Origin: Okeania sp. SIO1I7
GTDB lineage: Bacteria; Cyanobacteriota; Cyanobacteriia; Cyanobacteriales; Microcoleaceae
Length of the DNA: 64,000 bases
Assembly: GCA_010672585.1 (NCBI GenBank)
Contig: JAAHGF010000002.1
Span: 1 to 64,000, forward strand
Reading direction: 5' to 3'
Position 1 is the stretch's first letter. Each line of letters opens with the position of its first letter. The position numbers and the translations under genes are program-made. This document shows positions 4,589-53,594 of the stretch, one piece after another. The notes below the pieces were generated by a model, which saw nothing but the letters and a program-made list of their open reading frames with translations, made no database searches and had not been told where the DNA came from.

Positions 4589-5124
4589 TTCAACAATTAA
4601 TAATTAATAATTAATAATTAATAATTAGACATCTCCAGAAAAGAGGCAGTAGGGAGTAGGGAGTAGGGAACCCACCCCTAATATCATGTCCGGTTGAATA
4701 CTTATACTTTGGAGAAGGTAAGGCAGAAGGCAGGAGGCAGGAGGCAGAAGGAAAGAAAAGGTTAGAAGGGAAAAGGTTTTTTGATCACGCTATTATCCGG
4801 ACATGATATAACCCCTCCGGTGGAGGGGAAAAATTGATAATTTCTTTGGGATAATTGATTTTATTTTTTATTATTGGAGATGTCTATTAATAATTTATAC
4901 TCTGAAGTTAGCAGGTAGTAGGTTGTAGATAAGAAAAGTGTACCGCCTCACCTCATACATAATTTAATACTATTCGAGGCAATTGGGTTGAAAATTCAAC
5001 CATCAGGATCTTGAAGAATATTATAGCTCGTAGGTTATTCACCTAAAACCTAAAACCTAAGACCTCAAACTAAGACCTAAAACCTAAGACCTAAAACCTA
5101 AGACCTAAAACCTAAGACCTATAT
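4589..5124. repeat. gap with nested repeats, including a complete TATCATGTCCGG element
   Basis: From left to right: the TTCAACAATTAATAATTA edge of repeat family 2 (4589-4626); an outer inverted repeat with GACATCTCCA (about 4629) and TGGAGATGTC (about 4876); and inside it, at 4682-4808, a MITE-like element with ends TATCATGTCCGG...CCGGACATGATA flanked by TAA on both sides (4679-4681, 4809-4811). The core is purine-rich. The gap ends with a ~10-bp tandem array (ACCTAAAACCTAAG type, 5041-5124) directly against the next start codon. No gene is seen. Confidence 0.8.
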
Positions 5125-5125
5125 T

Positions 5126-5740
5126 ATGAATCAATCAACATCTCTAGATATTGCAGCCATTCGAGTAGGCAAAATCAAACATTTAGCAAATGCTCATCTC
5201 CCTGGTGTAGATTTAGCAGGAACCCAGCTTTCAGAAGCAGACTTCTACCAAGCTAACTTGATTGGAGTTAATTTTGCTGGAGCTAATCTACAGAAAGCAC
5301 AATTGAGAGCTAACCTGCGTGGGGCAGACTTCACTGGTGCAGATTTGAGAGAGGCAGACTTTCGTAATGCTGACCTACGGGGTACTATTTTTATGGATGC
5401 CCAAGTTAGAGGAGCTAGCTTTGCAGGTGCTTTCTTAAATGGAGCTGTATTGAATAGTTTAGAATTAAGTGGGGCTGATTTTCGTGGGGCCGACCTACGA
5501 GGTGTGAACTTCACTAGAACTATTCTATTTCAAGCAGAATTTAGTAGTGCTAATTTATCTGGTGCAGATTTATCCCAAGCAGATTTAGAAGAAGCTAATT
5601 TTACTGGGGCCATACTCCGGGGCACAAATTTACAACGGGCTAATTTGCTCTGTGCTATAGTCGATCGGGCTGACTTCAATGGTGCTCTACTCACAGATGC
5701 TTGTCTGCAAGGTACACCCCTTGATTCAGTCAATTGCTAA
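5126..5740 (+). CDS. pentapeptide repeat protein
   Basis: 204 residues, almost entirely A(D/N)LXX/A(D/N)FXX pentapeptides from about residue 25 to the end, which predicts a right-handed quadrilateral beta-helix. There is one break in register near NLQKAQLRANLRGADF, where a residue is missing or added. There is no signal peptide or membrane helix, so a cytosolic location is likely. Family members range from gyrase-protecting DNA mimics to thylakoid-lumen proteins, and the sequence does not decide between them. The start codon is immediately preceded by a tandem array (ACCTAAGACCT type) with no recognisable ribosome site, so the leader has been remodelled by repeats. Confidence 0.85.
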   Translation: MNQSTSLDIAAIRVGKIKHLANAHLPGVDLAGTQLSEADFYQANLIGVNFAGANLQKAQLRANLRGADFTGADLREADFRNADLRGTIFMDAQVRGASFAGAFLNGAVLNSLELSGADFRGADLRGVNFTRTILFQAEFSSANLSGADLSQADLEEANFTGAILRGTNLQRANLLCAIVDRADFNGALLTDACLQGTPLDSVNC

Positions 5741-6399
5741 AAGTTTGATTTGCGTAGTGGAATTACACATCTAAAATGTGACAATAGTAGGAGCGGGTTC
5801 GGCGTTAAATTAATTGCTCAACATTAAATTGAGATGAACTCGCCCCATTCCCCTGTCTCAGTCCATATGTTTGCTTCTCCCCCACTCCCCCACTCCCCTA
5901 TTTCCCTTCCACGGTCGGGGGAGGGGCTAGGGGTGGGTCCCCTGCTCAACAAAGTGTAGAAAAGTTTTTGATAAATTGTATTATATCATGTCCGGATAAT
6001 TAGTGATAAAAAAACTTTCTCCTTTTCCTCCTGTTTTTTCTTTCTTCTTCTTTCTTTCCTCCTGACTCCTGACTTCCCCTCCCAGGAGGGGAGGGGGAGG
6101 GGCGAAGGGTGGGTTGACTCCTGACTCCTCCGTCATTTATTTATAAGTATTCAACCGGACATGATATTACTTCTACCTCCTCGCTCACTCCCCGTTTCTC
6201 CTGTCTCCTGTCTTCCCTCCTGGGAGGGGGAGGGGCTAGGGGTGGGTTGTCTCCTGTCTCCTACCCCTACTAAAAGACTAGTGAAGCGCAAACCCTAAGT
6301 AGATGGAAAGTAATGCTTATTAAGTACATAAGTACAAGTAAACTTTACAATTCTTTATCAAACTGTTAGGATATCAATGAAGGCAAACATTGAAAAATT
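5741..6399. repeat. gap with a reversed TATCATGTCCGG element and pyrimidine-rich arrays
   Basis: The element at 5984-6166 has TATCATGTCCGG at the left, CCGGACATGATA at the right, and TTA on both sides (5981-5983, 6167-6169). It is inverted relative to the copy at 4682. Its core is a C/T-rich array of TCCTGAC heptamers and CCCCTCCC phrases. Before and after it are similar C/T tracts containing the phrase GAGGGGCTAGGGGTGGGT twice (about 5931 and 6233). The last 100 bases are AT-rich and may hold the promoter of the following gene; I could not identify a -10 with confidence. Confidence 0.8.
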
Positions 6400-7161
6400 A
6401 TGGTGACTGCGTTGTTTACCAATGTACCAATGCAAAATCAAAGTGGCGATCGCCTAGTGAGCAAGGCAGCAGGAGCAGCAATAGCAGCTCTGTTTAAAAG
6501 CTCTGATAAAGTCGAAGCCAATGTCCGCGCTGAACCAGTGGCCAAACTTTTACAGGGTAGTCTGGATGGGTTTGATTTTATTGGCAAAGGAATGCGGATG
6601 TACAATGGCCTTCGGATTGAAGTTATGGAGCTTTACCTGCAAGCTGTCTCAATAGACTTTAGTGCTATTTTTACTGGTAAAGTCAAATTAAGGCAGCCGA
6701 TCCAGGCCACTTTGAGGACTGTATTAACTGAGTCTGACTTGACCACTTCTTTCAATACACCATTTGTGGTAGAGAAACTGCAAAGGCTCAAATATCAGGG
6801 ACAATCCCTACATTTCCAAAATACTCAAATGACTATCACTGAAGATCGAGCCCTCAGACTTAAAACTCAAATCGGGGTAGGAAATCCAAATCAACCTATA
6901 GATGTTGATTTCACTGCTAACGTTGAAGTGGAAGATAGACGTAAAATCAAATTTGTTAATGTTAAATATAATGGTAATCAAGAGTCAGTAGATTTAGGTA
7001 AATCTTTAATAGATCATGTTAATAATTTACTGGATTTAGATAAATTTGCTTTAGAAAATACTCAACTGCGAGTAGACCGATTACGGGTCGGAAGAGATGA
7101 CATTACATTCTATGGTATAGCTAAGATTGAACAGTTTCCTAGTGGGATGAAGAATAAATAG
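6400..7161 (+). CDS. DUF2993 (LmeA-like) lipid-binding family protein
   Basis: 253 residues. The pattern fits DUF2993: an N-terminal helix, then alternating beta strands with phrases such as LRIEVMELYLQAVSIDFSA, LTESDLTTSFNTPFVVEKL and LRVDRLRVGRDDITFYGIA. The mycobacterial relative LmeA is a periplasmic phospholipid-binding protein; the cyanobacterial members are uncharacterised. No Sec signal is visible from this start, unlike LmeA, so either the protein is not exported or a longer start was missed. ATG 6400 is the first in-frame ATG, and GTG follows directly as codon 2. A strong inverted repeat at 7315-7362 probably ends transcription. Confidence 0.75.
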   Translation: MVTALFTNVPMQNQSGDRLVSKAAGAAIAALFKSSDKVEANVRAEPVAKLLQGSLDGFDFIGKGMRMYNGLRIEVMELYLQAVSIDFSAIFTGKVKLRQPIQATLRTVLTESDLTTSFNTPFVVEKLQRLKYQGQSLHFQNTQMTITEDRALRLKTQIGVGNPNQPIDVDFTANVEVEDRRKIKFVNVKYNGNQESVDLGKSLIDHVNNLLDLDKFALENTQLRVDRLRVGRDDITFYGIAKIEQFPSGMKNK

Positions 7162-7314
7162 CTGTTAATCTTTAAAATCTATTTAATGCAAGAGCAAAAT
7201 TGATGGAGTGAGGTTGAAAATAAAGCAGGAATTGACTACAAAGTATACAATTTCCTTGACAATTTGGCTTCTTTATCAAACAAGTTCAGAAATGAAATAA
7301 TACTTCAGGTTAGA

Positions 7315-7362
7315 TAGAAGCTACTCTAAAACATAATCTCTTCCCAGTTAGAGTAGCTTCTA
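7315..7362. terminator. perfect inverted repeat between convergent genes, likely bidirectional terminator
   Basis: TAGAAGCTACTCTAA (7315-7329) and TTAGAGTAGCTTCTA (7348-7362) are exact 15-base complements with an 18-base loop. The hairpin lies 150 bases after the DUF2993 stop on the plus strand and 25 bases after the Psb35-like stop on the minus strand. There is no strong U-tract, so Rho-independent action is inferred. Confidence 0.6.
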
Positions 7363-7386
7363 ATCTTAAGTTATGTTGTTATGCTT

Positions 7387-7554
7387 TTAACTATCTTTAT
7401 CCTCATTAACTTTAGGAACATAGTCAGGACGTTGTGCATCCTCCCAACCAGGAGGACGCTTAGAATTATACCAAGCAATTGAACCGATAGTAACAGCAGC
7501 AACAAAGCCTACTACAACGACTGCAATTGGAATCCATATATTACCCTGCACCAT
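7387..7554 (-). CDS. psb35: small thylakoid-type protein, Psb35-like
   Basis: A 55-residue protein from ATG 7554, preceded by GGAG. Residues ~5-27 form one hydrophobic helix (WIPIAVVVVGFVAAVTIGS), followed by AWYNSKRPPGWEDAQRPDYV and a short acidic tail. The single helix followed by NSKRPPGW and an RPDYVP tail matches my memory of the Psb35 (photosystem II assembly) family of small cyanobacterial membrane proteins. The gene is isolated, convergent with the DUF2993 gene, and shares the hairpin at 7315-7362 with it. I am sure it is a real small membrane protein and less sure of the name. Confidence 0.62.
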   Translation of the reverse strand: MVQGNIWIPIAVVVVGFVAAVTIGSIAWYNSKRPPGWEDAQRPDYVPKVNEDKDS

Positions 7555-7767
7555 ATTAAATCTCCAAGTTATTTCTATAATTAGAAATATTATCTCACAG
7601 CCTGGACTGAGTTTAAATCAAATCAAGCATTATTGCTAGACGGGGTAAATATTCAAGATTATTTGGTTGATATAAGAAACAATCTAGAAGCTGAATTGGA
7701 GAGATTTTTTTGTGGATGCGATCACAGACGGTAGCATCAGCCATATTGCTACTTTAACCATACTTAT

Positions 7768-8061
7768 TTAACCACCAGCAACAGCAGGAACAATGCTCAC
7801 TTCATCTCCATCTTGTAGAGATGTTTTTGTTCCCTCTAAAAACCGGATATCTTCACTGTTGACATAAAAATTTAAAAATCTTCGGGGTTCCCCTTGGTCA
7901 TCACAGAGACTTTTTTTGATTCCGGGATAGTCTGTTTCTAGAGAATCTATTAGTTCGGAAATATTGCCACCGCCACATTCAATTTCAATTTTTGCTTTAT
8001 CTTTTGCTTTATTTTCAGTAAATTTTTGCAGTGGGGTAGGAATTAAAACTGTAACTGCCAT
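7768..8061 (-). CDS. CysO-like sulfur-carrier protein (MoaD/ThiS family)
   Basis: 97 residues ending [12 protein letters not shown], the free Gly-Gly needed for thiocarboxylate formation. The stretch [16 protein letters not shown] is very close to the mycobacterial CysO pattern (N-x-YVN-x-EDVRF), and [13 protein letters not shown] matches its C-terminus. CysO donates sulfide for cysteine synthesis after activation by an E1-like enzyme; no E1-like gene or Mec-type protease is present here. It lies downstream of threonine synthase on the same strand, an association known in cyanobacteria, but 860 bases of repeat and transposon remnant now separate them, so co-transcription is doubtful. Confidence 0.82.
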
Positions 8062-8191
8062 AATTAATTAATCTAGGTTCTATAGCTAATACTTTAATTT
8101 GCAAATTTTCATTGTAATGGTGTGCCCAGAAAAACTGTAACTTTTTTAAGAAAAAAATTATTTTTCCTAACCCACTATTAATGATTGGAAG

Positions 8192-8301
8192 ATACAGCAG
8201 ATTCCATCTTGCTTAGTTACATTAATCGTGGGCAAGATGCCAGCACTGGGAACATTTAATTGTTAGTATCTGTACTTCATACACGACCGAATCTGCTGTA
8301 T
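8192..8301. mobile_element. MITE-like element with 13-bp terminal inverted repeats
   Basis: ATACAGCAGATTC (8192-8204) and GAATCTGCTGTAT (8289-8301) are exact inverted repeats about 110 bp apart. A second inner complement (ATCTTGC ... GCAAGAT) adds to the fold. There is no coding capacity. I saw no second copy in this window, so mobility is inferred from the structure only. Confidence 0.55.
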
Positions 8302-8336
8302 ATAGGAGTTTGTTCAACAAACCTCTAACCTAAAAA

Positions 8337-8450
8337 AAATAGGTGGTGGTGCATTGTCATGGTCGTGCATTGCATTATTTTTGTTATGAGAACAGTGGAA
8401 GCATCTTGTTCCCGTGCCTAGCATCCCTTGTTCCTTGTATAGAACCGTTC
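8337..8450. repeat. dispersed repeat, second copy at about 25690-25800
   Basis: AATAGGTGGTGGTGCATTG followed by GGTCGTGCATTG, TATTTTTGTTA and AGCATCTTG recurs at about 25690-25775 with mismatches. No gene is associated. The two copies flank different genes, so this is a dispersed sequence rather than an operon leader. Confidence 0.55.
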
Positions 8451-8482
8451 TACTAAACTTACCAAAATTTACCCAATAGGGT

Positions 8483-8735
8483 TTTGGAGCTAGCTTCCTG
8501 CTTCTGTGAGAACCACTGACCGTAGTCTGTAACTTATTCTCTCCACAGGCTTAAACTCGCTCTTGACTCAAGCTACTTATACACATAGTTTTTCAAGTTG
8601 ACAGCAGCATTAAAATCTCTGTCAGTTTCAAAACCCCTGAGTGGTATCTTTGTACGCTGTATTCGCTTTTGGTAGCAGTCCTCAGTCTGAGCAAGCCAGT
8701 GGAAATTCAGGAACGAGAATAGGGGAAAAAGCGGA
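8483..8735 (-). pseudogene. C-terminal remnant of an IS605/IS607-type TnpB (OrfB)
   Basis: On the minus strand from about 8700 to 8573 the frame reads an EDCYQKRI...ETDRDFNAAVNLKNY segment. D-R-D-x-N-A-A-x-N-L is the hallmark C-terminal block of TnpB, carrying the last RuvC aspartate. A stop follows; in another frame downstream the sequence reads FKPVERISYRLRSVVLTEAG, like the usual TnpB tail, so there is also a frameshift. The zinc-finger and everything upstream are gone; the region before it is a C/T-rich array. This is a dead fragment. Confidence 0.6.
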
Positions 8736-8922
8736 TGCGACCCCCCGCCGCCCGATAGTGCACCAAGCAAGTAGAAAAATACTCTCATCTCCCCATCTCC
8801 CCATCTCCCCATCCCCCCATCCCCCCATCTCCTCCTCTGTTTTTAAATAGATCCGTTTAGGGGTTCTATACCATGACTATGCAGGACTACCAAAGAATAT
8901 TCTTTCTTTGAGGTGAAGTTGG

Positions 8923-10236
8923 TTAAACCAAAACTTGCTCCCAATCAAGACGCTCTAATGTTTGAGCACGTTCCCAAGCTCGCTCGAAACTGTCTAACTT
9001 TGCATCTATTGTTAGAGGTTCGCCGATATAACCTTGTACTGCTTCTTGTGTCTTTAAGCCGTTACCTGTAATATAAGCAACGGTAGTTTCTTCAGGATCG
9101 ATTTTGCCTGCTTCTGCTAATTTTTTCAAGACTGCAATGGTTGTACCACCTGCTGTTTCGGTGAAGATGCCTTCTGTTTCTGCCAATAACTTCATGCCTT
9201 CAATAACTTCAGTATCGGTGACAGATTCGATATTACCGTTTGTTTTGCGAGCTACTTCTAATGCGTAGATACCATCTGCGGGGTTGCCAATCGCGATTGA
9301 TTTGGCAATAGTATTAGGTTTAACTGGGGTGATAAAATCACGACCTTCTCTGAATGCTTGAGCTACTGGGGAACAACCTTCAGCTTGCGCTCCACTAAAA
9401 CGAACTGCTTTATCTTCTACTAAGCCTACTTTGACAAATTCTTGGAACCCTTTATAAATTTTAGTGTAGAGGGAACCGGAGGCGATGGGAGCAACGATAT
9501 GGTCTGGTAGTTGCCATCCTAGTTGTTCGGCGACTTCAAAGCCTAAAGTTTTTGAACCTTCTGAGTAGTAGGGACGGAGGTTAATATTGACAAATCCCCA
9601 ACCGTAGGTATTGGCAACTTCGCAACAGAGGCGGTTTACTTGGTCGTAGTTACCTTTGACTGCCATAACTGTTGGATTGTAAATTAGGGTGCCGAGAATT
9701 TTGCCTGCTTCTAGGTCGGAGGGGATAAATACACAACACTCTAATCCTGCTTTGGCTGCGATCGCTGCGGTGGAGTTTGCTAGGTTGCCTGTACTGGCAC
9801 AGGATACTGTGGAGAAGCCTAATTCTCTGGCCCGACTTAGGGCTACTGATACTACCCTATCTTTGAAGCTGAGGGTAGGCATATTTACTGCGTCATTTTT
9901 GATGTAGAGATTTTTTAGACCCAGGCGACGGGCTAAACGTTCTGATTTTAGTAGGGGGGTCATACCTGTTCCTACATCTATTACGTTATCTGTTGCTACT
10001 GGTAGGAATTGACGATAACGCCATATAGAGTTAGGACCTGCTTCGATTGTTGCCCGGCTCACTGTTTGACGGATTTTTTCATAGTCATACTTTACTTCTA
10101 GGGGGCCAAAGCATACATCTTCGCATATATGTTTGGCTTCTAGTGGGTATTCTTCACCACATTCTTTGCACTTGAGTGTTTCTATTGCTGTATTTTGACT
10201 GTGGATTTGACTATCGATATTTGTGGCCTGGGTCAT
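8923..10236 (-). CDS. thrC: threonine synthase
   Basis: 437 residues; ATG 10236 is preceded by AGGGAG. It converts O-phosphohomoserine to threonine with PLP. Visible features: a Cys-rich N-terminal ribbon (CKECGEEYPLEAKHICEDVC, residues 23-42) typical of plant/cyanobacterial ThrC; the PLP lysine in PTLSFKDR (K125); the STGNLANS loop near 148-155 (phosphate/PLP binding); and IASGSLYTK with a glycine-rich C-terminal block. Length and order are normal. On the same strand lie a MoaD-like carrier 1.1 kb upstream and a CysO-like carrier 0.9 kb downstream, so the gene belongs to a sulfur-carrier neighbourhood that repeats have pulled apart. No leader peptide or riboswitch is recognisable upstream. 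Confidence 0.93.
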   Translation of the reverse strand: MTQATNIDSQIHSQNTAIETLKCKECGEEYPLEAKHICEDVCFGPLEVKYDYEKIRQTVSRATIEAGPNSIWRYRQFLPVATDNVIDVGTGMTPLLKSERLARRLGLKNLYIKNDAVNMPTLSFKDRVVSVALSRARELGFSTVSCASTGNLANSTAAIAAKAGLECCVFIPSDLEAGKILGTLIYNPTVMAVKGNYDQVNRLCCEVANTYGWGFVNINLRPYYSEGSKTLGFEVAEQLGWQLPDHIVAPIASGSLYTKIYKGFQEFVKVGLVEDKAVRFSGAQAEGCSPVAQAFREGRDFITPVKPNTIAKSIAIGNPADGIYALEVARKTNGNIESVTDTEVIEGMKLLAETEGIFTETAGGTTIAVLKKLAEAGKIDPEETTVAYITGNGLKTQEAVQGYIGEPLTIDAKLDSFERAWERAQTLERLDWEQVLV

Positions 10237-11224
10237 ATTCTTTACTCCCTACTTTTAACTAAGAACTATTAACTATTCTGCACTTTTTGAAATACTAGCA
10301 TGGGTAAAAATTACCGTCAACTATACCCGATAAAAATAGTCGGGATTAATTTTATCCTATTTTTTTGATTATTAATTGCAACAGATAGACCTTCTGCTTT
10401 GGCAGGTAATTTTACTAATTTAGTAGTTGATTTTAATGTAGCTATTGGAGGAGTAATATAAGTAGCTTATTTATTATAATTAAACTGATAATTAATAATT
10501 TTTATAGCTATTTTGTTTTAATTTATTATAGTTTTGAATCCAATATTTACTAATATTTTATTTGTCAATATAGCAATTTCCATGCTGGCGAGTTAAAAAT
10601 TAGTTTTTTTAGGGAAAAGGGAATATCAAACAAATAAAAATAGGTTTAACTCACGCTTACTGCAAAACGCTATATTACTAATTTTCAGAATAAAAACAAA
10701 TTTATTCTGTCATATTTTTTCTATTTTTTTCTATTTAATTTAGTATTAAATGTGAATAATGTTATAGTAATGGAAGCAAAAGACACAGACAGATCGAGAG
10801 CTTAAAACTCAGACAAAGTAATACTTTTCCTTATTCCTTCTTTCTTTTTTATTTTTTCTTCTGCTATATTGGATTTATTTGAATAAATGTAGCATTTTAT
10901 AGTGAAAAGCTTTCTAGAGGTAAGTGGTTTAATACCATATACCAAAGAAATTATATTTTCTAAAAAAAATATCTAAAATCTAAAATAATTGGCAGTCCTG
11001 CAACCGTAATGGTATTGATGAAATTTGGGACAAATTACCTATAGCGCTGTGCGCAGGCAACAGGCAACAGGGGAAATAAAAAACCGATGTTAACCCCTAC
11101 TATCTATGGTGGTTATGCGTAAATCTTGTAAAAGAAAGAGAATGTATTTCGGTTTGTTTCCTACTCACAGTTTTTTCCACTCCAGGTTTGCCTATCTCCT
11201 GTACTCCCCTACTCCCCCACTCCC
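10237..11224. other. AT-rich gap upstream of thrC with one inverted-repeat element
   Basis: Mostly AT-rich, without a supported gene. At about 10569-10675 lies a diverged family-3 element (ATAGCAATTTCCATGCTGGCGAGTTAAA ... TTTAACTC ... ACGCTATA; written here in parts) like the copies near 25463 and 52858. The rest (10680-11100) shows no feature I can support. A short frame at 11100-11294 on the minus strand runs through repeat sequence and is not credited. Confidence 0.5.
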
Positions 11225-11613: not shown

Positions 11614-11710
11614 TTCAGTTATCAGTTATCAGTTATCAGTTATCAGTACTTCCTGTAATAGAGATGCTTGAAACCTAATTTTTTCGTCATATTATTGGCA
11701 AGAGGCGAGT

Positions 11711-14168: not shown

Positions 14169-15069
14169 TTTTCTTCTTTCTTGAAATTACATCTCTACCA
14201 TAAAAGGTAGATACTACCCCAAGGCAAGGGATGCAATTATTTACCTATAAATCTATTACAATAAAGTATTCAGCTTGAGGATAGCTTGGGAGTAACCCAA
14301 ACCTTTTTTTCAATTACTTAAAATGATTAGGAATTTCAGTTTGGGTTAGCTTGTACCTACCCCAAACCACCCAAACTCATACCATTTCTCAAAAACTTTT
14401 CTATACTTTCTTAAGTAGGGGAGTAAGGGAGTGGGGGAGTGGGGGAGAGACAAACACCGGAATAATTAGCATGAACTGGCTAATAATTAGGAAATAAGTT
14501 ATTAAACCTGTATTAATTACTTGATAACTGAAGTTTTAGCCAAGTATAGCACTACTTTTGGGAATTGGTATCATACCGTTTCGTTTCACGGAAGTTAAAA
14601 GTCAAAAGTCAAAAGTAGGATTTTATAGAGCTACAAAACTTTGGTTTTACAGTAATTTCAGGAAATTATTTCACTTTTAAAGTTTGAAACTATTTGTGAC
14701 ATCTTGAAAGTGAATTAGTATCAGGACTGTTTTATATCATGTCTCTTTAAATAACCACTTCGGAAAAATTTAGGCAGTAGGGAATAGGGAGTAGGGAACA
14801 AGAGGAAATTTGTTTGCTCCCCATAACAAAGGGAAAAAATATTCTCTCTCTAGAGTTGAACATTTTTACCCTAGGCAAATTTATGAGACTTGATATTATT
14901 ATCTATCACGACCTGGGTCTGCAAAGTGTGGGGAGAAACTACAATTAGAAGAGTTGAATTAACTCTTTGGTGGTTATTGGTGGTTCGATATTCTCATACC
15001 TCCAATGCGTTTTACTACAATAAAATAGCTCTGACCCAAACTTCAAATAATTCTAATTAAATAAAATCT
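14169..15069. repeat. gap with repeat family 4 and a degenerate TATCATG element
   Basis: At about 14381-14575 is a family-4 element (starts TACCATTTCTCAAAAACTTTT, ends TTTTGGGAATTGGTA) with further copies at 37551-37738 and 56965-57160. At 14735-14895 is a diverged TATCATGTC...GACTTGATA element flanked by TTA on both sides. An AAAAGTC array lies at 14596-14613. The last ~150 bases should contain the promoter of the NACHT gene, but I see no clear boxes. Confidence 0.65.
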
Positions 15070-19986: not shown

Positions 19987-20048
19987 AAATTTTTATCCTA
20001 ACGTTTACAAAATTATTGCTCAACTAATTTTGACTTTTGACTTTCTCA

Positions 20049-32831: not shown

Positions 32832-33995
32832 ATGATTATATTAGCCAAAATCGGAGATATAGACATGATTGAAAAATTAGTTTCTGCCAATAACAAATTT
32901 GCCTTTCAACTATTTTCAGAAATTAAAAAATTCCAGCCAAATGAAAATCTTTTTATCTCGCCAATTAGCATAGCGATCGCTCTGTCAATGACCTATAACG
33001 GCGCTCGGGGAGAAACTCAAAAATCTATGGCTAAAACTTTAAACTTTCAGGAAATGAATTTAGAGGAAATAAATCAAGCAAATCAAGAATTAGGAAATTT
33101 ATTAGATAGTTTAAATTCCGACATTAAGTTAAATATTTCTAACTCAATCTGGACTAAAATCGGAATACCTTTTGAGCAAAACTTTCTACAGATAAACCAA
33201 GACATTTATCACAGTCAAGTAAGGGAAATTGACTTTGATAATCCGAAAACTCCAGAAATAATCAATAATTGGATAAAAGACAATACCAAAGGCAAAATCG
33301 AGCGAATAATTGAAACACTAGCTCGTGATTCAGTTATGGTATTGTTAAATGCTATTTACTTTCAAGGAAACTGGCAAAAAGAATTTGATGATTTTGATAC
33401 CAAAGATCGACCTTTTTATCTATCTAATGGAATGGAAAAACAACATCCAACGATGTTGCAATTATCCCAATATTCATATTATGAAAATCAAACTTTTCAA
33501 GCCATTAGTTTACCTTACGGAGAAGGTCGCGTCAGTATGTATGTCTTTCTCCCCAAAGAAGAAATAGGATTAGAAAAATTCCATCAAACTTTAAATGAAG
33601 AAAATTGGGAAAATTGGATGCTAAAGTTTGAATCTCAAAAAATCACATTAACTCTACCCAAATTTAAAAATGAATATGAAGTTAGCATCAATGACATACT
33701 AAAAACTTTGGGAATGGAAATAGCTTTTGACAGAAAGACAGCAGATTTTTCGGGAATGTGTTCTATTACATCAGAGTTATATATTAATGAAATTAAACAT
33801 AAAACATTTGTGGAAGTAAATGAAAAAGGAACAGAAGCAGCAGCAGCTACCAGTATAGTTATGCCAGTACCACTTTCTATGGAAATAGAAACAAGTTTAG
33901 ATATGTTTGTTAATCGTCCCTTCTTCTGTGCAATTAGAGATAATAATTCTGGCACTATTTTGTTTATGGGAGAAATTACAAATCCAGAAAATTAG
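32832..33995 (+). CDS. serpin without signal peptide (copy 3)
   Basis: 387 residues, or 376 if the second ATG (32865) is used. No hydrophobic N-terminus, so a cytosolic location is predicted. All serpin landmarks are present: FISPISIAIALSMTYNGA, INNWIKDNTKGKIERII, VMVLLNAIYFQGNW, and the C-terminal NRPFFCAIRDNNSGTILFMG. The hinge EKGTEAAAATS is a textbook inhibitory hinge. The reactive loop continues IVMPVPLSMEIETSLD, about three residues longer than in copy 1 and without the Arg-Ser pair, so the target protease differs (Leu or Met at P1 is possible). The rest of the protein is very similar to copy 1, so the loops have diverged faster. Confidence 0.92.
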   Translation: MIILAKIGDIDMIEKLVSANNKFAFQLFSEIKKFQPNENLFISPISIAIALSMTYNGARGETQKSMAKTLNFQEMNLEEINQANQELGNLLDSLNSDIKLNISNSIWTKIGIPFEQNFLQINQDIYHSQVREIDFDNPKTPEIINNWIKDNTKGKIERIIETLARDSVMVLLNAIYFQGNWQKEFDDFDTKDRPFYLSNGMEKQHPTMLQLSQYSYYENQTFQAISLPYGEGRVSMYVFLPKEEIGLEKFHQTLNEENWENWMLKFESQKITLTLPKFKNEYEVSINDILKTLGMEIAFDRKTADFSGMCSITSELYINEIKHKTFVEVNEKGTEAAAATSIVMPVPLSMEIETSLDMFVNRPFFCAIRDNNSGTILFMGEITNPEN

Positions 33996-35827: not shown

Positions 35828-36236
35828 ATGTTTATCAAACAGGATTGGGTCGCGCAACCCCACCTTTTAAGGCGAAATATTTTTGGAGGTTTGCTCAAAT
35901 CTGCATTACAAAAATAACTTCTGACTTCTGATATAGAATCCGGTTATACAGTATATGTTTATAATTCTATCCACACTTTCTCGCCTTAAATCTCCCCATT
36001 CACTAAAGTCAAAAGTTAAAAGTTAAAAGTTAGAAGTTAAAAGTTAGAAATGATATTTTATATCAAATCCGTTTAATTCAGTATAAAAAAATGTTCCATC
36101 TTCAACCATTACCAAATATTTCTCGATATTCCCCTCCTGGGAGGGGTTAGGGGTGGGTCCCCATCTCCCCATCCCCCCATCCCCCCATTTCCCCATCCCC
36201 CCATCTCATATAATAAGTATTCAACCGGATTTGATA
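35828..36236. repeat. gap with duplicated leader and a diverged TATCA element
   Basis: 35828-35930: GTTTATCAAACAGGATTGGG, GGTCGCGCAACCC, then TTACAAAAATAACTTCTGAC; this phrase set recurs at 37509-37555 plus 37740-37930 and partly at 42300-42380 and 59411-59480. 36009-36050: AAAGTTA arrays. 36061-36236: element with TATCAAATCCG ... CCGGATTTGATA ends, a diverged member of the TATCATGTCCGG family, with C-rich core. Confidence 0.7.
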
Positions 36237-37370: not shown

Positions 37371-37933
37371 ATAAATTTTTGTCTATCCAATATATAATCT
37401 ATTACTCTTTAAAATTATACCATTATTATTTAATTAACAATTATTAATTATTAATTTTTCGGTAAGTAAGAAAAACAGGAAGCGAAATTCAGTAAAAATC
37501 ATTTCAAATGTTTATCAAACAGGATTGGGTCGCGCAACCCCACCTTTTAATACCATTTCTCAAAAACTTTTCTACATTTCCTTGGGAGTAGGGAGTAGGG
37601 AGTAGGGAGTAGGGTTTAAAGAAATAAGATATTTTGGATTAATGCCGATAATCGAATGCAAACATTACTGAATTATTATTATTACTTAATAACTGAAGTC
37701 GCATTGGAAGTATAGCATTATTTTTGGGAATTGCTATAAGACGAAATATTTTTGGAACCTTGCTAAAATCCCTGTTATATCATGTCCGGTTGAATACTTA
37801 TTATTAAGGTAGTAGGGGAGTAGGGGAGCAGGGAAAATAGAGAGATTTACTGTTTAAGCACTCATGATAAGTTTTTTCATCACTGATTATTCGGACATGA
37901 TATTACAAAAATAACTTCTGACTTCTGACTTCT
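37371..37933. repeat. gap between SGNH copies: MBOAT remnant, family-4 repeat and TATCATG element
   Basis: 37467-37503 (AAGAAAAACAGGAAGCGAA and following) repeats the first codons and start of the MBOAT gene at 35783-35815, so the ancestral duplication included that gene. 37551-37738: family-4 repeat with GGGAGTA array. 37778-37902: TATCATGTCCGG ... CGGACATGATA element with TTA on both sides (37775-37777, 37903-37905), inserted in the CCTGTTACAAAAATAAC phrase seen intact elsewhere. Confidence 0.8.
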
Positions 37934-43136: not shown

Positions 43137-43167
43137 ATAATCATACGAGAAAATCTGGAGGATTACT

Positions 43168-46202: not shown

Positions 46203-46537
46203 AATTCAACAATTAATAATTACCTTTCCTGAAAACGGATAGGACTAGCGAAAATATTTTTTGTTTTTATTTGTTCTTCAAATAAGAGTCTTTAAACCTT
46301 AATTATTCAGTAATATCATGTCCGGATAATTAGTGATCAAAAAAACTTCCTCCTTTTCTTCCCCTTGATTCTTTCTTTTTTCTTGCTTCTGTCATTCTTC
46401 TTTATTCTCTCCTGAAAACTGATAACTGATAACTGATAACTGACTTGACACTCTCAGAAAAATTATGAGATAATCTAAATGATAATCAAACTATTATCTG
46501 AAAATTAATTATTCACAAAATCAGCTTAGGAGGTCGT
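46203..46537. repeat. family-2 element and a half TATCATGTCCGG element
   Basis: AATTCAACAATTAATAATTA starts directly at the CHAT stop; the element ends about 46312 (TTATTCAGTAA). TATCATGTCCGGATAATTAG starts at 46314, flanked by TAA, and runs into a C/T-rich core and an ACTGATA array (46426-46443), but no right end is found, so it is truncated. About 60 AT-rich bases precede the next gene. Confidence 0.65.
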
Positions 46538-47393: not shown

Positions 47394-47465
47394 ATGAAAT
47401 ATCGTGTCAGTCTTAATCGTAGAGATATAATAGTTGAATTGTAGATTATATGAGGTAAAAAAAAT
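47394..47465. repeat. 72-bp tandem duplication of a small gene's start region
   Basis: The segment with GAGGTAAAAAAAATATGAAAT occurs twice, with ATG at 47394 and 47466. The first copy encodes MKYRVSLNRRDIIVEL and then a stop; the second continues into the 58-residue gene. The ribosome site is duplicated as well. Confidence 0.8.
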
Positions 47466-47642
47466 ATGAAATACCGCGTAACTCTTAATCGTAGGGATAT
47501 AATGGTCGAAGCAGGAAGTAAAGAAGAGGCAAGTAAACAAGCGGCAGATAAGATTCATAAAGGAGAAAAAATTAACAGCATTAAAGAGGTAAAGTCATCG
47601 GAATCTAAGTCTGGCTCTTGGTGGGAAATTTGGTTAGATTAA
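47466..47642 (+). CDS. small hypothetical protein (58 residues)
   Basis: ATG 47466 with GAGGT 9 bases upstream. The product starts MKYRVTLNRRDIMVEAGSKE, is rich in Lys and Glu, and ends SWWEIWLD. The N-terminus resembles a short beta-hairpin plus a helix (EEASKQAADKIHKGEKINSI), a pattern seen in small beta-alpha DNA- or protein-binding folds; no family is claimed. The 5' end is tandemly duplicated upstream, with synonymous and conservative differences, which suggests that the codons were under selection. Confidence 0.55.
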   Translation: MKYRVTLNRRDIMVEAGSKEEASKQAADKIHKGEKINSIKEVKSSESKSGSWWEIWLD

Positions 47643-48783
47643 GTATTGAAGAAGCAAGAAGCAAAAAGGAAAAAGTATGGGGACAGTCAAGGACCTGCCA
47701 CTTCGTGTCTACAAATCCCAAGTAATTGTAAAAACCCTGTATACGGCGGTATCTTCAACCCAAAATAAAAAGAGAAATTGACAATATAATAGGGTTTTGC
47801 ATATTGATTAATTACCGAATAATTAATAATTAAATAATTAAATAATTAAACAATTCGGGTTAAAAGTCTCCCCTTTCAAGGGGAAAAAAGCGGTCGTTAG
47901 CGCAGCTTCCCGTAGGGTGGGATGGCTCCGAAACCTGCGCCATATCCAATCGAACAAGAGAATAAATTTTTTCCTTATTTGTCAATCCTCTCTCTAAAAG
48001 GGAGAGGTAATTATCAATTATCCATTAATGAAATTAACTAGGCTTGATTTTTTCTTAATATTGAGAAAAAACTTAATATTGAGAAAAAAATTTAAGGGCT
48101 AATAGCTTAGTGCTAATGACTATAATTTAGGGATGAGGTTAAGATAGTTGAGAAATATTTCATTTTTTATATTACCCAATAACCTCCCCCTTTTTCTAAT
48201 TAAAATTAATTCTAAAAAGTCGTAATTTTATAGATAATTATACAGCATTGAAGAAGGAAGAAGGAAGGAGGAAAAAGTGGATGGGGACTCAAACCCCAAC
48301 TAATTGTAAACACTGTGTAGACAGCGGGGTATTAAACCCAAAATAAAAAGAAAATCAATAATTTATCTAGCTTACTTAACATACATAAAACATCAAAAAA
48401 TTGTTTCCTAATTATCAAATATTTTCTGCAAAACTTAGCTTAAGTAATTATCTTGAAGAAGGAAGAAACAATCAGAAAAAAGTGGATGGGAATACTCTTC
48501 GACACGCCACTTAAGTGTCTTATATCATATCCGCTAGCATCGGAGCGTGTATAGAATTAAGTCACAATTGGAAGAAACCCTTCTGCCTTTTACCCTCTGT
48601 CTTCCTTCCACCAAAGTATAAGTATTCAAACGGACATGATATTATAACCCCAACCAATTGTAAACACCGTGTAGACGGCTGGGTATTAAACCCAAAATAA
48701 AAAGATAAACTATACTCTCTTTTCTGTCTTAATTTTCTGTTGTCTAATCTCCTATCGGTCTAACAAAAAACTAATTATTAGTA
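47643..48783. repeat. repeat-dense gap: three family-5 copies, one split by a MITE
   Basis: 47683-47776, 48278-48350 and 48483-48707 are family-5 copies (TGTAAACAC(C/T)GTGTAGAC, GGTATTAAACCCAAAATAA). 47812-48025 is a long family-2 element in the opposite orientation. In the third family-5 copy a TATCATATCCG ... CGGACATGATA element (48523-48641) splits GTCTTA/TAACCCC and is flanked by TTA on both sides. 48045-48090: AATATTGAGAAAAAA repeated twice. No gene is seen. Confidence 0.75.
48523..48641. mobile_element. TATCATGTCCGG-family MITE inserted in another repeat
   Basis: The left end TATCATATCCG and the right end CGGACATGATA are inverted. TTA (48520-48522 and 48642-48644) flanks both sides. 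The uninterrupted phrase GTCTTATAACTCC at 27659 and 46903 is the empty site, with a single TTA. This fixes the element's ends and its 3-bp target duplication. Confidence 0.82.
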
Positions 48784-49143
48784 ATGAAAATTACCTGCCA
48801 ACAACAATCTTTAATTACTACTTTTTTATTAATATTGATAAGTATAGCTTACTGTAGTTTACTGGTGAGTGAAGCAAAAAGTCAAACTCCCAAATTACTA
48901 TCTCAAAACGAATATCCTCAAGATTTTACAGAAGCTTATCAAGCAAGTTGTAAAATTAATGCTGTGACAAAAGGATTATCAACAGAACAAGCTGAAACAC
49001 TATGTGATTGTACCCTGAATCAGTTTCAATCTAAATATACCTTAGAAGAATTTCAGAAATTAATGAACAAAGCCGCAAAAGAGGAAACGCCAGAAGAATT
49101 AATAGAAGTTGGAGAGATTTGTGCTGAAGAGTTGATAGATTAG
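48784..49143 (+). CDS. small secreted Cys-containing protein
   Basis: 119 residues. Residues 1-33 form a signal peptide (FLLILISIAYCSLL ... SEAKS). The mature part has SCKINAVTKGLSTEQAETLC, then CDCTLNQFQSKYTLEEFQKL and a last Cys in EICAEELID. The pattern C-x(n)-GLS-x-x-x-A-x-x-x-C-x-C followed by a Y-T/S-x-E-E-F helix is shared by small exported proteins in many Gram-negative bacteria; their role is unknown. A family-2 edge begins 11 bases after the stop. Confidence 0.68.
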   Translation: MKITCQQQSLITTFLLILISIAYCSLLVSEAKSQTPKLLSQNEYPQDFTEAYQASCKINAVTKGLSTEQAETLCDCTLNQFQSKYTLEEFQKLMNKAAKEETPEELIEVGEICAEELID

Positions 49144-49614
49144 GTGATATATGTTCCACAATTAATAATTAATAATTAATAATTAATAATTACCTATTCT
49201 TTTCAAGGAGAGGATTGACTAATAATGAAAATTTTTCTTTATTATCCCCTTAAAAGGGGAGGCTTTAAACCAAAATTTTTCGGTAATTCAAAAATTAATA
49301 CTTACAGCATATTTCGGGCAAATGAGGTACAGGGTAAATGATGAAAATATTGTAGTGAGGTAATCTAGCCATCTTCGGGGTGTACCTCACGGGCAACGGG
49401 AAGCGCTGTATCTCTGGTGAAAATTATCAAAAAATTATTAAGATTGGCTAATAGGATTTTTGGCGTTGCTGATTTGAGGTATGATATCATGTCCGGATAA
49501 GAGGGTGAGCAAAAATTTTCTCCTTCTTTATTCCCTCCTGACTCCTGAGGACTGACTCCTGACTCCTAAGTAATTTAAGATTAATATGACACACTAATTC
49601 AGCAACGCCCAAAA
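49144..49614. repeat. three repeats ending at the RND start codon
   Basis: 49154-49285: family-2 element (TTCCACAATTAATAATTA ... TTTTTCGGTAA). 49297-49430: family-3 element (GAGGTACAGG ... TGTACCTCA, GCTGTA). 49461-49610: element with GGCGTTGCTGATTTGAGG at the left and CAGCAACGCC at the right, carrying a TATCATGTCCGG half inside. The right end is 4 bases before ATG 49615, so the leader of the RND gene is entirely repeat DNA. Confidence 0.75.
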
Positions 49615-52600
49615 ATGAAACAATCTACAGCAAAAAATCTACGACAACGCTGGAATATTTCCAGATGGGCGATCGCTCAACCATGGTTAACCATTTGTTT
49701 TTGGTTAAGTGTAGTAATAGCAGGTTTTTTTGCCTTTAGTAGTCTCAAATATGGCTTATTTCCAGAAGTCAGTTTTCCAGTAGTGGTAGTACAAGCAACA
49801 GCAAATTTTGACAATACTATCGAAACAGAAACGCAAATTACAACTCCGATAGAAAAAGCTGTAAAAATGCTCGAAACAAAAGGGATGTATGAACTGCGCT
49901 CCTCAACATATCCAGGTCAAGCAGTCATCAACATAGCTTTTACCACCCTAAGCAATTTAACATCAGCAACAGCAGATGTGGAAACTGCACTCAAACAAGT
50001 ACCTCTCCCTCCAGAAACTAATTTAGACATAATCAGTCTTGACCTCAATGAGTCAGCAGCAATTAGCTACACCATTGTTAGTGACAGTAAAACTCTCAGG
50101 GAATTAACTACCATTGCTCAAAATCAAATTATCCCTACTATTTCAGAATTACCGGAAGTTTTAAAAGTCAACCTACTTGGTGATGCTTCCTTAAAACAAA
50201 AAGACACTGACACATCACTCCCTAACACTTTCCCAACTTTAGTCAGTTTCAATAATAAAAATGCTATAGCTTTCCAAGTAGTAAAACGTGCTGATGCTAA
50301 TACTTTAGAAGCAGTAAGTAAAGTAGAAGAAACTGTAGCAAAAATGCAGTCTGACTTGCCAGAAATAAAACTCGTCTTAGCAGAAACTCAAGCAGACTAT
50401 ATTCAGGAAGCAACCCAAGCGACTATCGATGCTTTATTATTAGCAATTATTCTAGCAGTAGCAGTCATTTTTCCATTTTTACGGAATTTTTCAGCCACCA
50501 TAATTACAGCTTTAGCAATACCTATTTCTCTATTAGGTACTTGTATTGTCATGGCAATATTTGGATTTAACCTAGAAACTATTACCCTCCTCGCCTTAGC
50601 AATAATAATTGGAATAATTGTTGATGATGCTATTGTAGATGTGGAGAATATTGCCAGACATCTCCAAGCAGGAGAAACTCCCAAACAAGCGGCCATCAAT
50701 GGTACTGATGAAATAGGTTTAACCGTTGTTGCTTCTACCTGCACTATTGCTGCAGTATTTCTCCCAGTCGCTTTGATGGGGGATACCCTTGGTCAGTTCT
50801 TTCAACCCTTTGGTTTAACAGTTTCCGCAGCAGTATTAATTTCTTTATTAGTTGCCCGCACTTTATCCCCAGTATTAGCAGTGTGGTGGTTAAAAGAAGT
50901 TAAAACTCAGAATTCAGAAGGCAGAAAATTGCAGTTTGAAGTCAAAAATAAGGAGTTAGAAGGAAATAATAATAATCAAGTTAAACCTCAGAATTCAAAA
51001 GGCAGAAAATTGCAGTTTGAAGTCAAAAATGAGGAGTTAGAAAAAAATAATAATAATCAAGTTAAACCTCAGAATTCAAAAGGCAGAAAATTGCAGTTTG
51101 AAGTCAAAAATGAGGAGTTAGAAAAAAATAATAATAATCAAGTTAAACCTCAGAATTCAGAAGACAGAAAATTGCAGTTTGAAGTGAAAAATAAGGAGTT
51201 AGAAAAAAATAATAATAATCAAGTTAAACCTCAGAATTCAAAAGGCAGAAAATTGCAGTTTGAAGTCAAAAATGAGGAGTTAGAAAAAAATAATAATGAA
51301 GTTAAAATTAATCTCAAACAAGATGGTTTATTCAATCAAACACCAATTAGAGGTCAGAAGTTAGAAGGAAATTATGATGAAGTCAGAAGTCAGGAGTTAG
51401 AAGGAAATTATGATGAAGTCAAAAGTTATTTGAAACTAGAGAGTTTATTCAATCAAACACAAAAGTGGGAGAACACTTTATCCAATCAATACCAAAAATT
51501 ACTTAACTGGTCTCTAGACCATCGAAAAATTGTCATAGCAATAGCTTTACTCAGTTTCATCCTTGGTGTGGCAATGATTCCTCTAATCCCTAAAGGATTA
51601 GTACCACAACTAGACCGAGGAGAATTCAATATTACCTACACTTACCCTCTACCTAATTTTGTTAGTAATACTGAAAATACTCTCTCTCCCCAAACAACTC
51701 AAGCACCTTCCAATAACTCAATTTTTCCTGAAGGAGCATTTAATTGGATTAGCGATATAACCAAATCTCCCACTAGAATCTTATTAAGAAAATCTCGTAG
51801 AGTAGCGCAACAGATAGAGGAAATTGTTTTATCCTTCCCAGAGGTAGAATCAGTCTTTAGTATTGCAGGTTTCCAGGGTGAGCCAAATCATGGTAAAATA
51901 TATGTAAAACTCAAAAAAGAGCGATCGCTCACTACTGCTCAAATACAAGAACAAACTCGTAATGCTTTATCTGAGTTAAAAAATATTAGTGTTAGCGTTG
52001 AGGATATCCCATTTGTTGAGACTGGAGCTGGAAAACCTTTTGAGATAATGCTATTAGGAGATAATCTAGAAATTATCTACAACACTGCTCAAAAAATTCA
52101 AACTCAAATTGCCAAAATACCAGGATTTGTCGATTTAACTATTGCGCCTCAGTATAATAATTTCGATAACCCTATGGAAATAACTCACCGCGCTCAAAAG
52201 CAGGTTATCTATATTACAGCGAATCTCTCTGATGGTTTAGGACTAGGGAATGCTATAGATTTAGCAGTAGAAATAGCTCAACCAATTTTACCTCCTGGTG
52301 TCAAGTTAGACTTAGGTGGGGATTCTTTGAGAATAGGGGAAGTCTTTAGTAGTTTTTTTGTGACTTTAGGTTTCTCTGTTGTATGTATGTTGACAGTCTT
52401 AGTGTTACTTTTTGGTAGATTTTTAGAACCCTTGGTAGTAGGTTTGTGTTTGCCTTTGTCTATTGTGGGAGCAATGTTAGGATTATTATTTACTCAGAGT
52501 GATTTTGGTGTTATTTCCCTGCTCGGTCTAATTTTTCTCCTGGGTTTACTGGATAAAAATGCTTTGTTATTGATGGATTATATTAATCAACTGCGTCAGT

Positions 52601-52851
52601 CAGGGTTAGACCGTAGACAAGCTATTTTGCAAACTGGTTTAGTGCGACTGCGACCCATTTTAATGACGACAAGTTCGACAGTTTTAGGAATGTTGCCGAT
52701 CGCTTTGGGATTAGGAGCAGGAGCAGAATTACGACAACCTCTAGCTGTGGCAATTATTGGAGGGTTAATTACTTCTACTTTGTTGAGTTTAATCGTAGTT
52801 CCTGTTTTGTATACCTTATTAGAAGATTGGTGGAGATTGAAATTAGGGTAA
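49615..52851 (+). CDS. RND-family efflux permease (HAE1/AcrB-like) with a repeat-expanded cytoplasmic loop
   Basis: 1078 residues, 12 predicted helices. The first helix is near 23-42; periplasmic domain 1 is shorter than in AcrB. The TM4 proton-relay Asp pair is present (GIIVDDAIVDVENI, D337/D338), as is the TM10 Lys (GLLDKNALLLMDY, K981). Between TM6 (ending LSPVLAVWWLKE) and TM7 (starting RKIVIAIALLSF) is a ~185-residue hydrophilic insert (about 428-615): five copies of a 27-residue unit beginning QVKPQNSKGRKLQFEVKN, then shorter repeats. The loop is cytoplasmic in AcrB. Neither a periplasmic adaptor nor an outer-membrane channel gene is adjacent, so the substrate is unknown. The start lies 4 bases after a MITE end. 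Confidence 0.85.
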   Translation: MKQSTAKNLRQRWNISRWAIAQPWLTICFWLSVVIAGFFAFSSLKYGLFPEVSFPVVVVQATANFDNTIETETQITTPIEKAVKMLETKGMYELRSSTYPGQAVINIAFTTLSNLTSATADVETALKQVPLPPETNLDIISLDLNESAAISYTIVSDSKTLRELTTIAQNQIIPTISELPEVLKVNLLGDASLKQKDTDTSLPNTFPTLVSFNNKNAIAFQVVKRADANTLEAVSKVEETVAKMQSDLPEIKLVLAETQADYIQEATQATIDALLLAIILAVAVIFPFLRNFSATIITALAIPISLLGTCIVMAIFGFNLETITLLALAIIIGIIVDDAIVDVENIARHLQAGETPKQAAINGTDEIGLTVVASTCTIAAVFLPVALMGDTLGQFFQPFGLTVSAAVLISLLVARTLSPVLAVWWLKEVKTQNSEGRKLQFEVKNKELEGNNNNQVKPQNSKGRKLQFEVKNEELEKNNNNQVKPQNSKGRKLQFEVKNEELEKNNNNQVKPQNSEDRKLQFEVKNKELEKNNNNQVKPQNSKGRKLQFEVKNEELEKNNNEVKINLKQDGLFNQTPIRGQKLEGNYDEVRSQELEGNYDEVKSYLKLESLFNQTQKWENTLSNQYQKLLNWSLDHRKIVIAIALLSFILGVAMIPLIPKGLVPQLDRGEFNITYTYPLPNFVSNTENTLSPQTTQAPSNNSIFPEGAFNWISDITKSPTRILLRKSRRVAQQIEEIVLSFPEVESVFSIAGFQGEPNHGKIYVKLKKERSLTTAQIQEQTRNALSELKNISVSVEDIPFVETGAGKPFEIMLLGDNLEIIYNTAQKIQTQIAKIPGFVDLTIAPQYNNFDNPMEITHRAQKQVIYITANLSDGLGLGNAIDLAVEIAQPILPPGVKLDLGGDSLRIGEVFSSFFVTLGFSVVCMLTVLVLLFGRFLEPLVVGLCLPLSIVGAMLGLLFTQSDFGVISLLGLIFLLGLLDKNALLLMDYINQLRQSGLDRRQAILQTGLVRLRPILMTTSSTVLGMLPIALGLGAGAELRQPLAVAIIGGLITSTLLSLIVVPVLYTLLEDWWRLKLG
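50905..51445. repeat. 81-bp in-frame tandem repeat inside the RND gene
   Basis: The unit (CAGAATTCAAAAGGCAGAAA ... AATAATAATAATCAAGTTAAACCT; written here in parts) occurs about five times to ~51300. Two shorter units with GAAGTCAGAAGTCAGGAG-type heptamers follow. All lengths keep the reading frame. Confidence 0.85.
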
Positions 52852-53594
52852 AAAAGTTACAGCAGTTTTCTAGTTGATGAGGTACAAAGTTTTATTGCTT
52901 TAGGCAACAGGCAACAGCTCATCTGGCAACAGCTCATCTGGGAATATAGGAATAAATAGTCTTATAGCTGTACCTCACGCTTCCTCAAAAGTGCTGTAAA
53001 TTGTTGATGAGTTGGCGCTGTCTGGCGTAGTTATACCATATCCGTTGGTATAGTCCCGCGTAAAAGTTGGGGAAATATCTACCGCCATATAAGTAAAATT
53101 TTTCCTTTTCTTAAAGCTTCTTCCAACTTCGGTCTTCCTTACCTTCTCTATACAAGACCGATGCTACCGGACAAGTCTATTATACCAAGGAGGAGTCAGT
53201 CCTCAGGAGTCAGGAGGGAAGAAAGAAGGAAGAGGAAGAACAGGAGAAGAAGGAGAAAGTTTTTTGATCACCAGGACTTATATCATGTCCGGTTGAACAG
53301 TTATAAATAAACGACGAAGGAGTCAGGAGACAGGAGGGTAGAAAGAATGAAGAAGGAGAAAGTTTTTTGATCACGCTCTTATCCGGACATGATATTACGC
53401 ACACATACGAAATAATACACCATGTGTAGGGGTAACGGCCGTTAACCCCTACTGTATGTGGTAGTCCTGCATGGTAATGGTGAGAATATATATTTTTTAA
53501 TTTCTCCCACACTCCCCATCCCCCCATCTCCCCATCTCCCCATCTCCTCATCTCCCTATCCACCCCACACATGGTCTCAAATTCTCGGTATAGA
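52852..53594. repeat. gap with family-3 repeat and nested TATCATGTCCGG elements
   Basis: 52861-53000: family-3 element (GATGAGGTACAAAG ... TGTACCTCA ... GCTGTA) with a GGCAACA array. 53187-53272: the right part of one element (ending GTTTTTTGATCAC) without its terminus. 53281-53394: a complete TATCATGTCCGG element with TTA on both sides, splitting AGGACTTA/CGCA. 53405-53475: the remainder of the host element (GTGTAGGGGTAACGGCC ... GTAGTCCTGCA). 53510-53560: CCCCATCT array. Confidence 0.75.
53281..53394. mobile_element. complete TATCATGTCCGG MITE inside a GGACTTACGCA element
   Basis: 114 bp: TATCATGTCCGGTTGAAC at the left, TTATCCGGACATGATA at the right. Flanking TTA at 53278-53280 and 53395-53397. 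Removing the element and one TTA restores CAGGACTTACGCA, the end of another repeat family (20049, 25593). The core is a (GGAGTCA)/(GAAGAA) purine run. Confidence 0.85.

Follow-up and report, generated by a model that had tools for sequence, protein, structure and literature searches.

Miniature inverted-repeat elements with T-N-A target duplications in Okeania and their probable link to a clade of IS630-family transposases

Copies of the repeat in the window

We analyzed a 64,000-bp stretch of DNA (the window) from Okeania sp. SIO1I7 (JAAHGF010000002.1, positions 1 to 64,000), which is contig C22 of a 9.48-Mb draft genome of 109 contigs. The window contains dispersed short repeats with 12-bp inverted ends of the type TATCATGTCCGG. 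In an earlier note made from the sequence alone, they were described as a family of miniature inverted-repeat transposable elements (MITEs) with 12-bp ends and a 3-bp target duplication, and our analysis supports this description. The copies and the features related to them are listed below. The arm names (a1, a2, b1, b2, and c2) are labels coined in this analysis; G250 is a related genome of the same genus.

4682..4808, + strand: MITE copy, a1-a2 type, 127 bp, flanks TAA/TAA
5984..6166, - strand: MITE copy, a1-a2 type (reverse), 183 bp, flanks TTA/TTA
14735..14895, strand not assigned: diverged copy, several end mismatches, TTA/TTA retained
36061..36236, strand not assigned: diverged copy, TATCAAATCCG-type ends, resembling relic L022, flanks TTA/TGA (no duplication)
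37778..37902, + strand: MITE copy, a1-a2 type, 125 bp, flanks TTA/TTA, 1 mismatch in the right end
46314..46337, + strand: solo a2 arm without a right end, also present in G250
48523..48641, + strand: hybrid MITE copy with b1 arm left and a1 arm right, 119 bp, flanks TTA/TTA, end mismatches 2 left and 1 right
49457..49614, strand not assigned: different repeat with GGCGTTGCTGA-like inverted ends, encloses a TATCATGTCCGG arm at 49485-49496
53281..53394, + strand: MITE copy, a1-a2 type, 114 bp, flanks TTA/TTA, orthologous empty site in G250 (L054)
55130..55141, - strand: TACCATGTCCGG arm, same TTTGAGGTATGA context as 49485

All five complete copies measure 114-183 bp, have 12-bp inverted ends, and carry no transposase gene. 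They were found where the earlier note had placed them, each between identical trinucleotides (TAA once, TTA four times). Twelve ends with at most one mismatch are present in the window, whereas 60 Markov-1 resamplings averaged 0.07 such ends and never gave more than 1. An Rfam scan of the window gave no match.

The less complete copies had to be partly reinterpreted. The region 14735..14895 can still be considered a diverged copy with its duplication, but 36061..36236, which was also thought to be one and for which G250 has a similar copy at the matching place, lacks a duplication. At 46314, the supposed half copy proved to be a solo arm, but the arm at 49485 is embedded in a different repeat and is not simply half a copy. 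The GGCGTTGCTGA-like arms of the enclosing repeat lie at 49457-49487 and 49584-49614, and the TTTGAGGTATGA context of the embedded arm recurs at 55130-55141 (-) and twice in contig C1.

Repeats with GGCGTTG-type ends and a TATCATGTCCGG-like arm after TTTGAGGTATGA were observed in the window at 49457-49614 and 54953-55239 and on contig C1 (C1:276024 and C1:382792); possibly, they are composites of two MITE families. Beside the solo arm at 46314 lies a TAACTGA heptamer array (window 46397-46436). TAACTGA repeats are reported from Beggiatoaceae (PMC4679880, excerpt).

Abundance and arm types

The exact 12-mer TATCATGTCCGG occurs 539 times (273+266) in the host genome, compared with 1+1 for a reversed-pattern control. 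When one mismatch was allowed, 497+491 ends were counted, compared with 7+5 for the control. At least one exact match was found in 113 of 291 genomes of the same order (host included); most have few matches, and single ones may be due to chance. High exact counts were obtained, for example, for G250 (235+238), G285 (189+183), G091 (81+81), and G242 (67+57).

For copy analysis, C1:1-400000, C15:1-400000, and the window were used (864 kb). Ends lying 60-450 bp apart were paired. This yielded 67 pairs, and the 37 with at most 3 mismatches summed over both ends were considered near-intact copies. What had been regarded as a single family comprises several arm subfamilies: 22 of the near-intact copies are a1-a2, 10 are b1-b2, three are a1-c2, and two are b1-a1 hybrids. 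The outer 12 bp are common to all arm types, and approximately 30 bp are common within one arm type. The interiors vary in length and content, and 7-bp arrays are frequent in them. The purine fraction of the interiors, as oriented, is 0.47-0.90 in 35 copies (mostly purine-rich) and 0.35 in the two hybrids.

The idea that the MITEs spread the heptamer arrays was dropped. Among the 549 period-7 arrays in the 864 kb, 21 are located within the 37 near-intact MITEs (0.7% of the sequence), an enrichment counted without a shuffled control, and the MITEs are clearly not the main source. When tandem arrays of at least three units were counted in the 864 kb, the 549 arrays of period 7 compared with 129 of period 6 and 67 of period 8; periods 4 and 5 gave 3002 and 344 arrays, with chance weighing more there.

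Target-site duplication and empty sites

Identical 3-bp flanks were detected in 35 of the 37 near-intact copies (TAA in 21, TTA in 12, and TGA in two), all of which conform to TNA, and 4-bp matches were found in none of the 37. When the right flanks were shuffled (5000 shuffles), the mean was 16.8 matches and the maximum was 26. The other 30 pairs, which have 4-6 mismatches and many of which are probably due to chance, had identical flanks in five cases. No base was fixed within 10 bp outside the TNA across the 35 target sites.

We also used 80 loci from Okeania, Trichodesmium, Hydrocoleum, and Microcoleaceae, taken from a collection of named relatives that may exclude records of the window's genome or very near ones. 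Among the matches listed, 55 of the 63 copies shorter than 450 bp with readable flanks had identical flanks (TTA in 33, TAA in 21, and TCA in one). A check of flanks beyond the window had been proposed beforehand, and both data sets bear the duplication out. The 3-bp identity of the flanks stood, but the target is wider than the TTA/TAA described for the window: TGA was found in the 864 kb and TCA in other genomes. The duplication is T-N-A, 3 bp long, and not just TTA or TAA.

Comparison with a related genome, also suggested beforehand, revealed empty sites. The G250 orthologue of the 53281 locus reads GATCACCAGGACTTACCCACGCATACG, in which both flanks are joined by a single TTA, with a few substitutions. 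The G250 site for 48523 has the length of the joined flanks minus one 3-bp repeat, yet it is diverged. Matched flanks together with an empty site show that TNA is duplicated.

The earlier note had also pointed to empty sites inside the window. For 48523, GTCTTATAACTCC is indeed present in two repeats (27660 and 46899) whose sequences align by eye to the 48523 flanks. For 53281, AGGACTTACGCA is present at 20048 and 25594. Visual comparison, however, shows only about these 12 bases in common with the 53281 flanks, and therefore the orthologous site in G250 is the stronger proof.

The AGGACTTACGCA-ended repeats (window 20048 and 25594; C1:159146-159423) are perhaps a further MITE family. One such copy sits within a TATCATGTCCGG MITE, and copy 53281 interrupts a AGGACTTACGCA-like site. 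Another nested arrangement was observed in L272 (~4214-4350), where a MITE lies in an apparent arm of another MITE, at an ACTTA site.

IS630-family elements with the same kind of ends

Transposase-bearing elements with the MITE's 12-bp ends exist, namely G058, which has a two-frame transposase, and others. The parent transposase had been left unnamed in the earlier note; it is now placed in a clade of IS630-family transposases whose elements have ends of this kind. The NCBIfam IS630 model NF033545 (cutoff, 100) gave 204-243 bits for each of the five open-frame relatives tested (L026, L027, L029, L030, and L034), and the open-frame relatives match Pfam DDE_3 and a winged helix-turn-helix (HTH) N terminus. 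A homologue of a transposase relic on host contig C44 (see below) was detected at 1e-10 in 63 of 291 genomes of the order (host included). In a phylum sample of 292 genomes, with seven candidates scored per genome, at least 10 genomes have a homologue at 1e-60, all in the same order.

Full elements with such ends are mostly ~1.1-1.2 kb long. In ten groups of them, distinct copies were compared; loci without both ends, without a 12-bp flank, or with flanks already counted were skipped. Identical flanks, all TNA, were present in 36 of 41 distinct copies (G058, 5/6; G064, 5/5; G038/G097, 6/6; G009a, 6/6; G103, 3/4; G160, 4/4; G120, 3/3; G200b, 3/3; G249, 1/2; G292, 0/2). Six control groups of TA-type IS630 elements had a 3-bp flank match in 1 of 29 copies (AAT). 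In G058, identical ends are flanked by TAA, TTA, TGA, and TCA across copies, and the element exists in a 1140-bp form and an internally deleted 894-bp form.

From 120 matching plasmid records of named bacteria, 12 were fetched and their flanks were read by eye. TNA was found on both sides in nine of the 12 copies: two each from Thermus, Azospirillum (one is ISAzs14), and Deinococcus, and one each from Methylocystis, Stanieria, and Cyanobacterium aponinum. The three copies without TNA are from Polaromonas and, in two strains, ISAva6. The latter is 41% identical by tblastn, lacks a TNA duplication at the single locus that was read (seen in two strains), and is unlabelled in our transposase tree.

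In this tree, which has an arbitrary root and several half-length rows and in which only flank-verified rows were labelled, one branch (96/88) parts 20 TNA rows from 10 TA rows. One TNA/TA change is needed in 94% of 200 bootstrap trees. Fourteen rows are in no group, among them L026, L034, L041, and L079, whose single-copy flanks are unmatched. Rows with long branches (L080, L093, and L094) and a near-duplicate (L027) were not included. The ISAzs14 row has a long branch, and part of it may be out of frame. Because of the half-length rows, the ISAzs14 row, and the arbitrary root, a single origin and the direction of change are not proven by the tree. The spacing from the second D to the E is 31 residues in all 14 TNA-side rows read versus 43 in the three TA-type rows read; this motif was readable in 17 of the 34 rows of an earlier, more loosely labelled tree.

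Two overlapping frames (HTH and DDE), with A8 or a longer run in the overlap, were found in G058, G064, G103, G120, G160, and one G033 element (loci L061, L147, L143, L160, L154, and L064). Within each of G058, G064, G103, G120, and G160, the copies compared agree at 99-100% across most of their length, which suggests programmed frameshifting in the two-frame transposases. A PDB search with the transposase profile gave one partial match (33 residues; E, 5.6e-9), which was not used.

Transposase relics in the host genome

Three relics of an IS630-like transposase were found in the host genome. The first (L021; C1:312275-313692, 1418 bp) was found from wide-spaced ends and consists of decayed transposase pieces. 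The second, found by protein search, lies at C44:740697-741846 between TATCAAATCCGG-like ends, and the third, a C-terminal transposase fragment on C37, was found by profile search. The relics on C1 and C44 both sit between MITE-type ends. Two relic fragments had no match in Pfam, and the family assignment is thus based on the intact relatives. The b1-type MITE arms agree in 28 of 34 bases with the arms of broken transposase-bearing elements in G250 (L056) and G285 (L059).

The palindrome GGCGAGGAGACCTCGCC is present twice inside the decayed transposase gene of C1:312275-313692, and part of it recurs in a MITE at C15:230169-230440.

Origin of the MITEs

With a probability of roughly 0.88, we consider the repeats to be nonautonomous MITEs mobilized in trans by one IS630 clade, with T-N-A duplicated via a 3-bp stagger. 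The clade transposase would recognize TATCA(TG/AA/AG)TCCGG-like ends and would insert elements into T-N-A with a 3-bp stagger, leading to the duplication. Mobilization in trans, cut-and-paste transfer, and staggered joining would correspond to the known behavior of DDE transposases. If any two nearby ends can move the DNA between them, arm types would mix, as in the b1-a1 hybrids. The MITE biology here is ordinary; the transposase behind the MITEs is a variant of the known IS630 family, with 3-bp TNA instead of TA.

Several results weigh against this interpretation. With the IS630 model at 1e-30, no intact transposase was found among the 32 of 52 host candidates scored, and with profile A1, all 42 of 42 host candidates scored yielded only the relics and two HTH-only genes. 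Since no intact clade transposase was found in the host genome, we infer the mobilization in trans there. The flanks of the relics on C1 and C44 are unequal (TGA/TAA and TTA/TCA). Among the loci collected, there was no full-length element whose arms match a1 or a2 across 30 bp; the best arms agree in 22-25 of 34 positions, and about half of this agreement is the shared 12 bp. Six wide-spaced a1/a2 arm pairs were considered as full elements, and the three that were opened were all separate MITEs. Finally, flanks mismatch in 2/37 MITEs of the 864 kb, in 8/63 of the listed copies from named relatives, and in 5/41 full elements, including both copies of G292, which are 99.8% alike. Recombination or misassembly would explain the G292 case. 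Since only three decayed relics were found, the several hundred host copies are probably immobile now or dependent on a transposase outside the assembly.

Among the alternatives, mobilization by an IS5/PIF-Harbinger-type transposase, with the IS630 relics lying between similar ends by chance, is very improbable. MITEs of PIF/Harbinger elements, such as Tourist, have TWA/TNA duplications. PIF/Harbinger elements as a rule duplicate 3 bp (PMC2213677, excerpt), which is not the rule for IS630, yet elements with an IS630 transposase have such ends and TNA duplications in many genomes, the transposases found between the ends are IS630, and the two larger host relics lie between such ends. Slightly less probable still is that the host retains the repeats for a regulatory or structural role (as terminators, boundary elements, or binding sites for its HTH proteins) and that they are no longer transposons. 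The lack of an intact parent among the host candidates and the two conserved HTH-only relatives of the transposase would fit this idea, but the absence of 53281 from a related genome and the target duplications indicate transposition, and arms and interiors vary. The least probable alternative is a true duplication of TA with a third base that matches by chance or base composition: the element ends start and finish with TA and the flanks are AT-rich, but N differs among same-ended copies while agreeing within each copy, TGA and TCA contain no TA, the flank matches exceed all shuffles, the empty site in G250 has one TTA, and the TA-type IS630 controls hardly ever match.

Comparison with known elements and significance

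In the IS630-Tc1-mariner group, duplication of TA counts as a hallmark (PMC8533490, excerpt), and ISY100, for example, prefers TA (PMC6400869, excerpt). The elements described here share with the IS630 family a transposase score far over the cutoff, DDE_3, a winged HTH, and, in some cases, two frames with an A-run. They differ in having TNA instead of TA and, where the motif was readable, a D-E spacing of 31 residues instead of the 43 of three TA-type rows. ISHsp2 of Halomonas sp. ZM3, also IS630, likewise deviates from TA, and a frameshift at GAAAAAAAAA has been predicted for it, but its duplication is the 4-bp TTAA and not TNA, and it is set apart here by its description (PMC3606827, excerpt). 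Within the same larger group, the duplication length has also changed in Fot/Fot-like elements of the pogo type (TAA and TAAA; PMC7386202, excerpt) and in Sailor (TATA in most; PMC8533490, excerpt). Compared by description, these are other clades with fixed TAA, TAAA, or TATA, in contrast to T-any-A here.

The plasmid copies fetched of ISAzs14 (Azospirillum) and of the Thermus and Deinococcus IS630 elements (two each) have TCA on both sides, and their rows belong to the TNA side of the tree; their ends read TACCAG, TACCCT, or TACGG, in contrast to TATCATGTCCGG here. ISTth6, an IS630 element of Thermus, is given a 2-bp repeat (PMC6352166, excerpt) and may or may not be the same as the copies read here. 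Nezha is, by the title of its report, a cyanobacterial MITE. Tourist MITEs of PIF/Harbinger are short and AT-rich with a TWA-like 3-bp duplication, but they depend on a different transposase family, and their target likeness to the MITEs described here would be convergent. In the open-licence literature, which was partly sampled and seen in excerpts, with ISfinder outside the scope, we came across no account of an IS630 element that duplicates TNA.

The existence of a T-any-A lineage in cyanobacteria, with related elements in Thermus, Deinococcus, and Alphaproteobacteria, suggests a change of stagger within the group. Structural and biochemical comparisons can thereby draw on naturally occurring pairs of related transposases, one with a 2-bp and one with a 3-bp stagger. 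A caution also follows: a 3-bp TNA duplication is not sufficient on its own for placing a MITE in IS5/PIF-Harbinger, and pipelines demanding TA for IS630 may misplace the boundaries of TNA elements.

HTH-only relatives of the transposase and a serpin gene in the window

In two host genes, the match to the transposase profile is confined to its N-terminal, DNA-binding part.

C16:230247-230681 (L350:1748-2182): HTH-only gene 1, 145 aa
C44:386200-386643 (L351:1701-2144): HTH-only gene 2, 148 aa

The ten genomes searched include eight of this family (five from the window's genus and three from g5), and each of these eight has at least one copy of both genes; no match was obtained in G242. Between the host and the other seven genomes, dN/dS (NG86) is 0.035-0.141 for gene 1 and 0.072-0.438 for gene 2, the top value being reached at very low divergence. 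Gene 2 adjoins gatA (TIGR00132) in the host, and the adjacent frame starts alike in G250 and G285. In a 146-genome phylum sample, relatives of gene 2 with at least 61% identity and open frames of 152-212 aa were found in seven other genomes, and for gene 1, a sample of the same size gave no match above 58% outside the host genome. Both HTH-only proteins are 50-54% identical to the TACGGAATCC-type TNA transposase of G009.

Judged from these sequence comparisons, the two genes, which are under purifying selection, look domesticated. It is conceivable, if rather doubtful, that Okeania-type cyanobacteria have retained these proteins (145 and 148-152 aa) as host genes and that the proteins bind the dispersed ends, acting as silencers of transposition or as regulators via MITE-borne sites.

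The window also contains a bacterial serpin gene at 32832-33995 (Pfam Serpin, 397 bits).

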